A stretch of 38,450 bases of DNA, from positions 1 to 38,450 of the forward strand of contig SHYW01000042.1 of the NCBI GenBank assembly GCA_009692615.1, written 5' to 3'. Both the position numbers and the translations under genes were made by a program. The stretch comes from Deltaproteobacteria bacterium (lineage in GTDB: Bacteria; Desulfobacterota; Binatia; UBA9968). This document shows positions 7,152 to 16,406 of the stretch, in pieces. The notes beneath the pieces were generated by a model, which ran no database searches, was not told where the DNA came from, and saw only the letters and a program-made list of their open reading frames with translations. How positions within the stretch are numbered: the first letter of the stretch is position 1; the number at the start of each line of letters is the position of its first letter.

Positions 7152-7859
7152 ATGGCCACCAACATCAAAGAGCTCAAAGAGCAGCTCGCTTATTCCTGCA
7201 ACATCCTCGCGAACGAAGGCCACTGGGACAACATCCTAGGCCATGTGTCGGTTAGAATCCCTGGGCAGAATAAGATTCTCATGAAGCCGCACAGCTTCGG
7301 CTTCGAAGAAATCCGGCCGCAGCATATTATCGTGGTCGATATTGAATCCGGCAAAAAAACCGACGGCAAGTTCGAGCGCCACTCAGAAGTTTTTATCCAC
7401 ACGGAAATCATGAAGGCACGCAAGGATGTCAACTGCGTCGTCCATTCGCATCCACCCTACGCCACCGCCTTCGGCGCCTTAGGCCAAAAGCTTCGCCCGA
7501 TCAGCCATGAAGGAAATATTTTCTACGAGGGTCTGCCCACCTTCGATTACACCACAGCGTTAATTCGCACGCCGGAACTCGGTGTCGAAGTTGCGAAAAG
7601 CCTCGGCAACTACCGCGGCGTGCTGATGAAAAATCACGGCTCAACAGTCGTCGGGCCGACCATCGAAGTGGCGACACTGTATGCAATTTTCTTAGAAAAA
7701 GCCGCGCGCATTCAGCTCATGGCCACCGCGTCGGGCGATCCTTCTTGGACCAGCGATGCCGAAGCCGCGGTCAAGTACGAGCAGATCTACACGCCGCACC
7801 GCTTGGATTCCATGTGGGACTATTTCGTGCGCCGGGCCAAGAAGCTGCGCAAGTTGTAG
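7152..7859 (+). CDS. Class II aldolase/adducin family protein (aldolase or decarboxylase)
   Basis: This 235-residue zinc enzyme belongs to the family of fuculose-1-phosphate aldolase and of some aromatic acid decarboxylases. The visible site consists of E79 (RHSEVFIH), the HSHPP pair H98/H100, and H162 in KNHG, the usual three-His metal set plus catalytic Glu. AAGGAG lies 6 bases before the ATG. The gene sits right after a CoA ligase, so a role in aromatic or hydroxy-acid breakdown fits better than sugar metabolism. Some class II aldolase homologues act as 3,4-dihydroxyphthalate decarboxylases. It converges with the receptor gene ending at 7888, with no clear terminator in the 28-base gap. 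Confidence 0.85.
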   Translation: MATNIKELKEQLAYSCNILANEGHWDNILGHVSVRIPGQNKILMKPHSFGFEEIRPQHIIVVDIESGKKTDGKFERHSEVFIHTEIMKARKDVNCVVHSHPPYATAFGALGQKLRPISHEGNIFYEGLPTFDYTTALIRTPELGVEVAKSLGNYRGVLMKNHGSTVVGPTIEVATLYAIFLEKAARIQLMATASGDPSWTSDAEAAVKYEQIYTPHRLDSMWDYFVRRAKKLRKL

Positions 7860-11170: not shown

Positions 11171-12034
11171 ATGGGAAAAGCGCAACTGATTCGCCACGCC
11201 TTGGCTCAGCATGGACAGCTGATCATGCCCGGCGTCTACGATGCCCTAAGCGCCAAAATCGCCGCCCGCGCCGGTTTCGAAGTTGTTTTCATCACCGGCT
11301 ACAGTCTTTCGGCGACGCTTTTGGGCGAGCCCGATTTCGGTTTATTAACCCAAACCGAAGTCGTCAGCGCGGCCCAGCGAATCTGCTCGGTGATCGACAC
11401 ACCGGTGATCGTCGATGCCGACACGGGCTATGGCAATGCCATTAACGTCATGCGCACGGTGCAGGATTTGATCCGTGCCGGCGCTGGCGGAATGTTTCTC
11501 GAAGATCAAGTCTGGCCCAAGCGCTGCGGCCATATGAAGGGGAAACAGGTTATCCCACTTGACGAGCAGGTAAAAAAGCTTAAAGCCGCGGTGGAAGCCA
11601 AAGGCGATAATGATTTTTTCATCGTCGCCCGAACCGACTCGCGCCAAGCTCTGGGTCTTGATGAAGCGATCAAGCGCGGTAAGGCATTCAAAGATGCCGG
11701 CGCCGACGCGGTTTTCATCGAGGCGCCTGAATCCAAAGAGGAAATGAAAGAGATTTCCCGCCAAGTGGCCGGTCCGCTGGTTGCCAACATGCTGGAGCGC
11801 GGCGTCACACCGCTGATGGAACCCAAAGAACTAAAAGAATTAGGCTTTGATTTGGTTGTTTGGCCCCTGGCGCCGCTCTATTCGGTCGCCAAATCGTTGA
11901 CCGATGTTTATACGACGCTTAGACGGGATGGCTCGACTCTGGCTATTTTGGATAAGCTTATGCCATTCGATGAGTTCAATGGTATCGTCGGCCTCAACGA
12001 AAAATACGCTCTCGACGCAAAATATAAAAGCTAG
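11171..12034 (+). CDS. Isocitrate lyase/PEP mutase family protein (oxaloacetate decarboxylase or methylisocitrate-lyase-like)
   Basis: This 287-residue TIM-barrel enzyme has the full family signature: PGVYDALSAKIA (20-31), VDADTGYGNA with metal-binding Asps (81-90), LEDQ (110-113) and the catalytic loop KRCGH (117-121). Relatives cleave or decarboxylate small 2-oxo or hydroxy diacids: methylisocitrate, 2,3-dimethylmalate, oxaloacetate. The sequence alone does not pick one. AGAGG lies a few bases before the ATG. It ends 19 bases from the convergent dnaN gene. It may finish a catabolic route started by the CoA ligase and aldolase upstream. Confidence 0.87.
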   Translation: MGKAQLIRHALAQHGQLIMPGVYDALSAKIAARAGFEVVFITGYSLSATLLGEPDFGLLTQTEVVSAAQRICSVIDTPVIVDADTGYGNAINVMRTVQDLIRAGAGGMFLEDQVWPKRCGHMKGKQVIPLDEQVKKLKAAVEAKGDNDFFIVARTDSRQALGLDEAIKRGKAFKDAGADAVFIEAPESKEEMKEISRQVAGPLVANMLERGVTPLMEPKELKELGFDLVVWPLAPLYSVAKSLTDVYTTLRRDGSTLAILDKLMPFDEFNGIVGLNEKYALDAKYKS

Positions 12035-12053: not shown

Positions 12054-13160
12054 TTATAGCCGCATCGGCATTAACACGTACAGATAGCCATCGACACCGC
12101 TCTTGCGGATCACACTTGGGCTAAGTTCGTCCTTAAGTTCAATATCGATCTCACCGTCGCCGGTCAGCACGCCCAAAACATCCATCAGGTAGCGTGCATT
12201 GAAGCCGATGGAAATAGTTTTACCTTTGTAATCCGCTTCAATATCTTCCACCGCCTCGCCTAAGTCAGGATTGTTCGCCGAGATTGCGACTTTACCGTTG
12301 GTGAACTCCATGCGCACGCCCTTATAACGCTCGCTGGAAAGAATCGACACCCGGCGCAAAGCTTGCAGCAACTCGTCATGATCGAGCTTAGCGATGTTTG
12401 GATTACCCTGGGGAATCACTTTCGTGTAGTCGGGAAATTCGCTATCGATCAAGCGCATAAACAGCTCGACCTTGTCCTTGATGACTAACCCCATGTTTTC
12501 TTTGAATCCCAAGGAAACCACACCGTCATCGCTGCTCTCCAGCAGCTTTTTGAGTTCGGCCAATCCTTTGCGCGGCAGGATCACACCTTTGGTCAAACCG
12601 AGAGAACCGAGAGTTTTTTCTTCGAAGGCTAAGCGATGGCCGTCGGTGGCGACCATTTTCACGTTGCCGTTATCACCCTGTTCGATAAACACACCGGTCA
12701 AGCCATAACGGGTTTCATCACTGGAAACCGAAAAGATCGTTCGCTCGATCATTTGCCGCATGGTCGAAGCCGGCGTGGTCGATAAACCCTGACTATCGAA
12801 TTTGGGAAACTGGGGAAATTCCTTGGCATCCATGCCGACGATTTTAAAAACCGATTTACCGCTGCGGATTTCCACCCAATCGTTATCTAAACGCTTCAAT
12901 TGCACTTGGTCATTACGCACTTCACGAATAATTTCGTAAAGTTTTTTCGCGCTGACCGTGACCGTTCCTTCTTTGACGACATCGCCTTCGACCGCCCCAC
13001 GAACGCCGATCTCAAGGTCGGTAGCGGTAATGCGAATTTCTTTTTTTTGCGCTTCAATCAGGACGTTAGCAAGGATCGGCATCGTATTACGCCGTTCGAC
13101 AATGCTCTGTGTCCAATAAAGCGTTGCGAGGAGATCTCCGCGCTTGGCTTTAATTTCCAT
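12054..13160 (-). CDS. dnaN: DNA polymerase III beta subunit (sliding clamp)
   Basis: The ring-shaped clamp tethers the replicative polymerase to DNA and docks many partners. The 368-residue length, the opening MEIKAKRGDLLATL, the mid-protein ATDGHRLAFEEK and the C-terminal end YLYVLMPMRL with the partner-binding pocket are diagnostic. Three repeated clamp domains of about 120 residues fit the length. GGGAGG lies a few bases before the ATG. It is downstream of dnaA on the same strand, separated by a 219-base region that carries origin elements. Confidence 0.97.
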   Translation of the reverse strand: MEIKAKRGDLLATLYWTQSIVERRNTMPILANVLIEAQKKEIRITATDLEIGVRGAVEGDVVKEGTVTVSAKKLYEIIREVRNDQVQLKRLDNDWVEIRSGKSVFKIVGMDAKEFPQFPKFDSQGLSTTPASTMRQMIERTIFSVSSDETRYGLTGVFIEQGDNGNVKMVATDGHRLAFEEKTLGSLGLTKGVILPRKGLAELKKLLESSDDGVVSLGFKENMGLVIKDKVELFMRLIDSEFPDYTKVIPQGNPNIAKLDHDELLQALRRVSILSSERYKGVRMEFTNGKVAISANNPDLGEAVEDIEADYKGKTISIGFNARYLMDVLGVLTGDGEIDIELKDELSPSVIRKSGVDGYLYVLMPMRL

Positions 13161-13178
13161 ACTGCCTCCCCTAACTTC

Positions 13179-13231
13179 TATTTTTTAATATATATATAAT
13201 AATTAGTAGTAATAGTAGGGGTTGTGGATAA
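13179..13231 (-). promoter_or_regulatory. oriC basal unwinding element (DnaA box, G-run, DnaA-trios, AT-rich tract)
   Basis: On the plus strand the order is an AT-rich tract (13179-13203), then TAGTAGTAATAGTAG (13204-13218), then GGGT, then TGTGGATAA (13223-13231), a perfect DnaA box in reverse. Read from the box, this is box, G/C spacer and five DnaA-trios running into the AT-rich region. That matches the basal unwinding system described for bacterial origins. It lies in the dnaA-dnaN spacer, as in Bacillus. The rest of the spacer (13232-13379) shows only weak box-like sites. Confidence 0.82.
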
Positions 13232-13379
13232 AGCACAGAAACGCTTTTACTGAATCAAATCGGCAAGCTACCTTGTGACTTCGGTAAGGTCGAAATCTGT
13301 TCTTTTCACTTTAACCTAAGCGTGAACGCGTTTAGTCCATACAAGTTAACAGTTCACCTGCCAGTTAATCACAGGTTGT

Positions 13380-14732
13380 TCACATATTTTTACGGATGTT
13401 AAGATTTATTTCGAGCTTCTCAATGGTGTTGAGCATGTGGGGATCTTCTTTGATTTTTCGCTCAATGGTTTTTGACGCGTGAATCACGGTGGAGTGGTCG
13501 CGGCCGCCAAATTTATCGCCGATCGTTGGGAATGAAGTTTCGGTGTGCTTGCGGCACAAGTACATGGCCATCTGGCGCGGCAGAGCGATGTTTTGGGTAC
13601 GCCGTTTGGCTTTGAGATCGCCAATCTTGATATTGAAATAATCGCAAATGGTTTTTTGAATGCTCTCGATGGTGACTTCGCGCTCGGAGCTTTTCAGACT
13701 GTGGACTAGAACTTCTTTAGCGAAATCGATGGTGATCAAAGTCTTGGTCAGCGAAGAAAAAGCTTCCAGACGTGTCAAAGATCCTTCCAGCTCGCGCACG
13801 TTGGAATCGATATTCGAAGCCAGGAAGATCGCCACGTCGTGGGGCAGCAGCACATGCTCGGCTTCAGCCTTTTTCTGTAATATCGCCACCCTGGTTTCCA
13901 TATCCGGCGGCTGAATATCGGCGATCAAACCCCATTCGAAGCGATTACGCAGGCGATCTTCAAGGCCGGGAATCTCTTTGGGGAATTTATCCGAGGTAAT
14001 GACGATCTGTTTATGCGATTCGTAAAGCGAGTTGAAGGTGTGAAAGAACTCTTCTTGAGTTCTTTCCTTGCCGGCGATGAACTGGATATCGTCGACGATG
14101 AGAATGTCGACGTTGCGAAATTTCTTTTTGAATTCGTCCATCTTATCGCGCCGAAGCGATGCGATCAGCTCGTTCATGAAGGATTCAGAACTGAGGTAGG
14201 CAATTTTTAAGCCTGGCTTTTGCGCCACCGCGCGGTGACCGATGGCGTTGATCAAGTGCGTCTTGCCGAGACCGACACCGCCGTAGATAAACAGCGGGTT
14301 GTAATGTTCGCCAGGCTGATTGGCCACCGCCATACAAGCCGCATGAGCGAATTGATTACTCGCACCTATAACGAAGTTATTGAAGGTATACTTCTGGACG
14401 AGATTATTTTTATTGAGGGCTGGCTGTGCCGATGGTGTTGGTTCCTTTTGCAGCTTTTTTTCTTGTCTCGCCGCAGATGCGGGTTGCTCTAACTTGGCAT
14501 TGATTTCGAATGTCACCGTTACGTCATGTTTGCTGATCGAAGTTAGAGCCGTTTCGATTTGCCGTAAATAATGTTCGGTCAACCAATCGCGAAAAAATTT
14601 ATTCGGCACCGCCAAAACGATTTCATTTTTATTTTTTGCCGCGAAACGAACTGGCTTGAACCAGGTATCGAAGTTTTGTTTACCAATCCGCTCTTTTATT
14701 TCGGCCAGGGCATCAGCCCAAAGTTCTTCCAT
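13380..14732 (-). CDS. dnaA: Chromosomal replication initiator protein DnaA
   Basis: DnaA binds its boxes at oriC and opens the duplex. In this 450-residue protein, domain I is residues 1-80 (FDTWFKP), the linker is about 81-110, and the AAA+ domain has Walker [10 protein letters not shown] (151-159) and Walker [10 protein letters not shown]. Domain IV carries the helix-turn-helix, including the DnaA signature [11 protein letters not shown] near the C-terminus. The ATG at 14732 fits the usual start ([11 protein letters not shown]), although no clear ribosome site is visible. A 38-bp palindrome with two DnaA-box-like sites lies about 50 bases upstream, which suggests autoregulation. Confidence 0.97.
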
Positions 14733-14783
14733 AGTTTTATCGTTAAGAGACTGAATTTATGTAAAAACCCCGAAAAATAGTTA

Positions 14784-14821
14784 CGCACAAAGTTATCAAC
14801 AGCTGTTGATAACTTTGTGCG
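14784..14821. promoter_or_regulatory. 38-bp perfect palindrome with two DnaA-box-like sites
   Basis: The halves meet at 14802/14803. They contain TTATCAACA (14793-14801) and its mirror TGTTGATAA (14804-14812), each one base from the consensus DnaA box TTATCCACA. It sits between dnaA and the divergent hemL, close to where the dnaA promoter should be. It could be a second origin half and an autorepression site. Confidence 0.7.
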
Positions 14822-15119
14822 GGTCAAAAGACGCGTGTATTATGAAAAACGGAAGCCGCATCAATCAGTCGAAAGCTGGTGAGTTTTCTCTTCGTTCGCG
14901 GTTGGCGTGGTTGTGACCCGTTGCAAACCATAAGAAAGAAAAAAAATTCACCGTCAAAAAAAATAAACGTAGAAATTATTTTCACTGTGTTTCGGAAGGA
15001 TTTGTAATAGTCCTTTTCAAATTCTATTGCAAGAAAAAAACTCTAAGAAAAAATAATTTTATCACGATAATTTATTGACGGTGCAAGATCGCGATGTTAG
15101 CACTGTTGACGCGCAGCTT
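14822..15119. other. AT-rich noncoding spacer between dnaA palindrome and hemL
   Basis: About 300 bases with no convincing gene. It is markedly AT-rich, with many A-runs from about 14930 to 15075. No further good DnaA box, no tRNA and no terminator was found. No well-spaced promoter for hemL could be fixed, although one must lie here. It may belong to the origin region. Confidence 0.5.
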
Positions 15120-16406
15120 ATGACAAACTCAGAAAAAAAATTTTCCCTTGCTTTACGTAGAATTCCTGGCGGCGTGAACAGTCCGGTGCGCGCTTGGAAG
15201 TCGGTGGGCGGCACGCCGCGCATGATTTCCCGCGGCAAGGGAAGCGCTATCTATGATTGCGATGGTAATCGTTACATTGACTTGGTCGGATCCTGGGGAC
15301 CGTTGATTCTCGGCCACGCGCATCCGAAAATTGTCCAAATCCTCAAACAAACCGCGGCGCGCGGCACGACTTTCGGCGCGCCGACCTATGGCGAAGTCGA
15401 ATTGGCCGAGTTGGTCACCAGCTTGATGCCGTCGATTCAGAAATTGCGGCTGGTGAGTTCCGGAACCGAAGCGACCATGAGCGCGATCCGGCTCGCGCGC
15501 GCTTTTACTCAGCGCACCAAGCTGGTGAAATTCGACGGCTGTTACCACGGTCACTCGGATGGCTTGTTGGTAAAAGCCGGCTCCGGCGTGGCGACTTTGG
15601 GTTTGCCGGATAGTCCTGGTGTGCCGCGGTCATTCGCTCGCGAGACTTTAACGGCGAAGTATAATGATATTCAATCGTTGCAAAAATTATTCGATCGTCA
15701 CGGCAAGTCCATCGCTGCGCTGATCGTCGAACCGATCTGTGGCAACATGGGTGTGATCTTACCGCAGCCAGGGTTTCTCGCGGCGCTCAGAAAAATCACC
15801 CAACAGTATGGAACGCTACTGATCTTCGATGAAGTCATCACCGGTTTCCGCGTCGGGCTCGGCGGCGCGCAAAAACTGTTCAACGTTAAACCCGACTTGA
15901 CCTGTTTAGGAAAAATCCTTGGCGGCGGCTTGCCCTTAGCAGCATTTGGCGGCCGGCGCGCGATCATGGATCAGTTGGCACCACTGGGGCCGGTGTACCA
16001 AGCAGGAACATTGTCAGGAAATCCCTTAGCGGTGGCCGCTGGAATGACTACATTGAAACTTCTGTCTCGTCCCGAAGTTTATGCACAACTAGACGCAAAG
16101 GGAAAACGGTTGGAAGAAGGATTCAGAAAAGTTCTCAGTAGGTACCAATTAAAAGCGACGATCAATCGCTTGGGCTCCATGCTGACGCTCTTCTTCGGCG
16201 TAGGTAAGGTTGATAACCCGGACGACGCCCGACATTGTGACCGGGAAATGTTCGCCCGTTATTTTCACGCCATGTTGGCTCGTGGGATTTATCTGCCGCC
16301 CGCGCCGTTCGAAGCGATGTTTGTATCCTTGGCGCATTCAAATAGCGATTTAGATAAGACAATCGCCGCATTCGACGACTGGATTAGAAAAACCCGGCGC
16401 GATTGA
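15120..16406 (+). CDS. hemL: Glutamate-1-semialdehyde 2,1-aminomutase
   Basis: This PLP enzyme makes 5-aminolevulinate from glutamate-1-semialdehyde in the C5 haem pathway. The 428-residue product opens with the family hallmark RRIPGGVNSPVRAW, has the SSGTEATMSAIRLAR phosphate-binding region, FDEVITGFR with the PLP-contact Asp, and the Schiff-base Lys265 in TCLGKILGGGLP. A TTG (15075) or GTG (15081) start is open upstream, but the ATG at 15120 puts PGGVNSP at the usual distance from the start. No strong ribosome site precedes it. It is divergent from dnaA and reads towards the F0 operon. Confidence 0.94.
   Translation: MTNSEKKFSLALRRIPGGVNSPVRAWKSVGGTPRMISRGKGSAIYDCDGNRYIDLVGSWGPLILGHAHPKIVQILKQTAARGTTFGAPTYGEVELAELVTSLMPSIQKLRLVSSGTEATMSAIRLARAFTQRTKLVKFDGCYHGHSDGLLVKAGSGVATLGLPDSPGVPRSFARETLTAKYNDIQSLQKLFDRHGKSIAALIVEPICGNMGVILPQPGFLAALRKITQQYGTLLIFDEVITGFRVGLGGAQKLFNVKPDLTCLGKILGGGLPLAAFGGRRAIMDQLAPLGPVYQAGTLSGNPLAVAAGMTTLKLLSRPEVYAQLDAKGKRLEEGFRKVLSRYQLKATINRLGSMLTLFFGVGKVDNPDDARHCDREMFARYFHAMLARGIYLPPAPFEAMFVSLAHSNSDLDKTIAAFDDWIRKTRRD

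Follow-up and report, generated by a model that had tools for sequence, protein, structure and literature searches.

The spacer between dnaA and dnaN in the contig studied here very probably contains the site at which the chromosomal origin is unwound, in the form of a single-box basal unwinding system (BUS). This reading draws on sequence, location, conservation and GC skew. The window, by which we mean the whole analysed stretch of 38,450 nucleotides, is an entire contig of a 5.05-Mb assembly in 186 contigs. Its minus strand encodes DnaA (13380–14732; 450 amino acids) and DnaN (12054–13160; 368 amino acids), with 219 bases between the two genes. DnaA has the full Pfam domain set (Bac_DnaA at 5.6e-74, Bac_DnaA_C and DnaA_N), and DnaN matches DNA_pol3_beta, DNA_pol3_beta_2 and DNA_pol3_beta_3. 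The closest named DnaA proteins share 45–53% identity with that of the window and are spread over several phyla. At the positions that we take to align with I190 (single-strand binding) and R264 (arginine finger) of the Bacillus subtilis protein, the window DnaA has isoleucine and arginine. Elsewhere, recF/gyrB and rpmH/rnpA are common neighbours of dnaA and dnaN; here they are not the adjacent genes. A PEP-mutase-family gene (11171–12034) lies next to dnaN and is convergent with it, and a class III aminotransferase gene (15075–16406) lies next to dnaA and is divergent from it.

Read in the sense of dnaA and toward dnaN, the spacer carries TTATCCACA, ACCC, CTA CTA TTA CTA CTA and then ATTATTATATATATATTAAAAAAT. 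The first of these is a DnaA box on the minus strand at 13223–13231 (TGTGGATAA in plus-strand letters), a perfect consensus with 0 mismatches in the proximal position, which is the position kept in the order. It is followed by a GC-rich gap of 4 bases (13219–13222; GGGT on the plus strand), five in-phase DnaA-trios on the plus strand (13204–13218; TAG TAG TAA TAG TAG, or 3'-GAT GAT AAT GAT GAT-5') and an AT-rich tract (13180–13203) that is predicted to be the first DNA to melt. A+T content is 92% in 25-base steps over 13173–13209. Each of these parts had been named in a first-pass annotation of this DNA (a consensus box, a G-run, five in-phase trios and an AT-rich tract), and each is present. 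Two weak DnaA-box-like sites on the plus strand, each with 2 mismatches, face the main box: TTAATCACA at 13365–13373 and TTGTTCACA at 13376–13384, the latter overlapping the dnaA stop codon. A solitary perfect DnaA box also occurs at 7393–7401, away from the origin region.

The predicted assignment of this element to the known BUS is made on sequence. The published loose rule (PMC8287927) asks for a box with at most 2 mismatches, a gap of 0–16 bases and at least three in-phase NAN trios; the window element has 0 mismatches, a gap of 4 and a run of eight NAN trios, five of which are [G/A]AN. It lies at a predicted origin, as judged from the dnaA–dnaN spacer and the window's skew minimum, with partial backing in relatives. 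Single-box sites were themselves predicted by that rule in the 2,070-species survey reported there. The element resembles the incC BUS of B. subtilis (boxes 6 and 7 plus DnaA-trios) in its dnaA–dnaN spacer, box orientation, trio pattern and the AT-rich tract beyond the trios, and the Bacillus-type loci that we scored have the same 4-base GC-rich gap. The likeness ends at the boxes. Bacillus-type tandem-box sites have a second, more conserved box in the distal position, whereas the window has its consensus box in the place of box 7 (proximal) and nothing recognisable as a box in that of box 6 (distal), where the best 9-mer has 5 mismatches. In the survey as described (PMC8287927), the better or sole box peaks 10–13 bases from the trios; here the sole box lies 4 bases away, which counts against the origin reading. 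The earlier description of the element as textbook stands for its anatomy and not for the placement of its only good box. The finding is sound, belongs to a kind already known and is a little less textbook than had been claimed.

GC skew places the origin in the same spacer. The cumulative skew of the window has its minimum at base 13178, and a V shape of this kind was reached by none of 10,000 shuffles of 500-base blocks. We also examined local stretches from ten relatives, giving 11 with the window, and 0.80 Mb sampled more widely from one of these relatives (G009), a single 4.21-Mb contig from a different family of the same order. The local minimum falls within the spacer in 6/11 stretches (the window, G016, G010, G005, G009 and G021) and within 100 bases of it in 8/11, adding G014 and G020. 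In the remaining three it is displaced by 1.9 kb (G017), 5 kb (G027) and 19 kb (G032, at the edge of the stretch). In all 11, the 13-kb arm next to dnaA has negative skew and the arm next to dnaN positive skew (arms are shorter where contigs end). At the chromosome scale, the interpolated minimum of G009 lies at 2.50–2.54 Mb and its dnaA at 2.485 Mb (from 40 samples, each 20 kb long, covering 0.80 of the 4.21 Mb), with a second, almost equal dip at about 2.03 Mb. The second dip and the three displaced minima weigh against the origin reading. GC skew had been proposed as a check of the first-pass claim that a DnaA-trio element marks oriC: the claim itself is borne out by the spacer location, the window's minimum, the element's recurrence at the corresponding site across the order and the skew of G009, and the check succeeds in the window and most stretches, with the three displaced minima as exceptions.

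The arrangement is conserved across the order. Among 35 genomes searched, 32 had a dnaA match, and 30 loci, including our own, were studied (G001 and G028 had no locus). By a score that treats proximal and distal boxes symmetrically, with a cut-off of 7, the element occurs at the same place in 26/30; a close relative (L084) carries it. The other four (L086, L094, L100 and L102) have a trio run that breaks early and fall below the cut-off, which counts against the origin reading, and the expectation that relatives would keep the trio pattern is upheld with these exceptions. With the first trio as the anchor of the alignment, the central base is identical in 30/30 for trios 1 and 2 and is kept in 28, 29 and 28 of 30 for trios 3, 4 and 5, and the third position varies freely in trios 4 and 5. 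If the central adenine is the part of each trio that counts, as in the NAN rule (PMC8287927), a near-invariant centre beside a free third base is the pattern to be expected. The CACA end of the box is retained in 27–28 of the 30 loci, the gap measures 4 bases in 28 and 3 in two, and box, gap and trio phase are conserved over two families.

The position of the strong box sets the order apart from the loci with which we compared it. In the order (n=30), at the cut-off of 7, the better box is proximal in 22 loci and distal in 0; 4 loci are tied and 4 fall below, under weights that were set after the order's spacers had been seen. Of the 80 named loci, which are the top DnaA matches across the genome collection and, where scored, mostly Bacillota, 31 have the better box in the distal position and 4 in the proximal, 2 are tied, 26 fall below the cut-off and 17 are too short. 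For the phylum, 158 genomes were searched and 154 had a match; among the 89 loci analysed from outside the order, the better box is distal in 19 and proximal in 7, with 2 ties, 59 loci below the cut-off and 2 too short. The contrast persists at a cut-off of 9, where proximal, tied and distal counts are 20/1/0 in the order, 2/2/27 in named loci and 3/0/11 in the phylum outside the order, with no false hits in 870 shuffled phylum spacers. An alternative best-place scoring finds the element in 30/30 order loci (26 proximal and 4 tied), but it rewards a proximal box and is biased in that direction. We rely on the counts of 26/30 passing and 22 proximal because they come from the symmetric score with a cut-off.

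This contrast raises the possibility, toward which we lean less than we lean away, that the origin lies here but that a strong box beside the trios, order-wide, makes a distinct BUS variant. With the same reserve, the first DnaA might touch the first trio directly, leaving a second DnaA on a distal box unnecessary. Arguing for such a variant are the proximal preference of the order at both cut-offs, the mismatch counts in the window (0 proximal, 5 at the best distal site) and the report that only the upstream box is needed in B. subtilis in vitro (PMC8287927). Counter to this, mismatch counts differ from affinities, the compared loci are related by descent and the Fisher values make no correction for this, several order members retain a weak distal site with 2–3 mismatches, the majority of loci outside the order fall below the cut-off, and the weights were picked with the order's spacers in view. 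In addition, the survey, as described, already admits single-box sites. A strong proximal box is also compatible with the solved BUS complex, because there DnaA1 occupies box 7 (proximal) and DnaA2 box 6 (PMC10721633). Stated for the whole order, a reversed BUS, in which the strong box abuts the trios, the distal box has decayed and the first initiator sits directly on trio 1, is a tentative proposal that we find somewhat doubtful.

A second conserved cluster of DnaA boxes, missing from the first-pass annotation, lies 60 bases before the dnaA start. It consists of a perfect 36-bp palindrome (14785–14820) containing two convergent copies of TTATCAACA (14793–14801 on the plus strand and 14804–14812 on the minus strand), with a third, weak box, TTACGCACA, at 14781–14789 on the plus strand (2 mismatches), separated by 3 bases from the closer of these two copies. 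The 22-base core of the palindrome occurs at a single place in the assembly at up to 2 mismatches. Throughout the order the pair is mostly TTATCCACA-N2-TGTGGATAA, with 0 total mismatches in 18 of 30 loci, at most 1 in 24 and at most 2 in 27, and most of the order loci listed have a comparable third site after the pair. In the nearest relative (L083) the arms of the pair differ, being TTGTCCACA and TTATCAACA. By this comparison, the left arm in the window looks like a copy of the right arm that extends over another seven bases, a change for which one template switch at an imperfect palindrome would suffice. A convergent pair with a 2- or 3-base centre (at most 2 mismatches) also lies upstream of dnaA in 38 of the 80 named loci, from several phyla.

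It is very unlikely that this upstream cluster is the main functional origin and the BUS subsidiary to it. The pair recurs far beyond chance (27/30 order loci and 38/80 named loci, against 0/600 and 0/1,600 shuffles, respectively, at 2 or fewer total mismatches). However, the skew of the window is lowest at the BUS, some 1.6 kb from the cluster, and DnaA boxes at dnaA promoters are known from autoregulation in Escherichia coli and B. subtilis, as described in PMC8203912. The cluster resembles those promoter boxes in grouping a short way upstream of dnaA, and differs from them, as they are described there, in its convergent pair 2 bases apart, its weak third box and its perfect 36-bp palindrome. 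We suggest that the cluster probably serves DnaA autoregulation, local supply of DnaA to the origin, or both.

Within the spacer, the extent to which chance could produce the element depends on the rule applied. The loose rule passes 18.8% of 1,000 shuffled spacers and on that account is little proof by itself. A strict rule asks for a box with no more than 1 mismatch, a gap of 3–5 and at least five [G/A]AN trios. Drafted with the element in view, it was satisfied once when the spacer was dinucleotide-shuffled 20,000 times and never in 30 shuffled copies of the window. In the 5.05-Mb assembly, the only exact match to the 24-base pattern TTATCCACA-N4-CTN-YTN-YTN-YT is the window element, and one further place matches at 2 mismatches; the same pattern run backwards as a control has three matches at 2 or fewer. 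As a rival reading, the dnaN leader might owe its box and trios to chance or to a role in transcription, with the origin elsewhere. The leniency of the loose rule and the local skew minima off the spacer speak for it, but the strict-rule frequency, the conservation of box, gap and trio phase over two families and the skew minimum at 13178 make it scarcely credible.

For the unwinding site favoured here, the steps of opening can be proposed by analogy with B. subtilis, from which we infer binding, loading strand and melting (as described in PMC6669920 and PMC8287927), and helicase loading beyond them. The helix-turn-helix domain of DnaA would bind the box at 13223–13231. An oligomer of ATP-bound DnaA would then assemble on the plus strand in the direction of dnaN, covering 13218 to 13204 and continuing into the AT-rich tract. 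By stretching that strand, the oligomer would open the duplex at about 13180–13218, and DnaB helicase would be loaded at the opened DNA, probably with DciA. The leftward fork would run co-directionally with dnaN and the rightward fork head-on with dnaA. DnaB was found in the assembly. DciA had no match in the 186 contigs, which counts against the origin reading; this may perhaps reflect an assembly gap. Loss of DciA as a feature of the lineage was considered and rejected because 32 of 34 order genomes, our own counted among the 34, have the protein.

Looking across the analysis, the predicted unwinding site of this uncultivated lineage is narrowed to about 50 bases, and the strand onto which DnaA would load is predicted with it. 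Specialists may find one result of interest, the contrast in box position. If the proximal preference holds across the order, it would provide a natural contrast with B. subtilis, in which the upstream box is the one reported to be needed in vitro (PMC8287927). If the BUS of these bacteria is truly reversed, the order would constitute a natural experiment on which box position guides the loading of DnaA onto a single strand.
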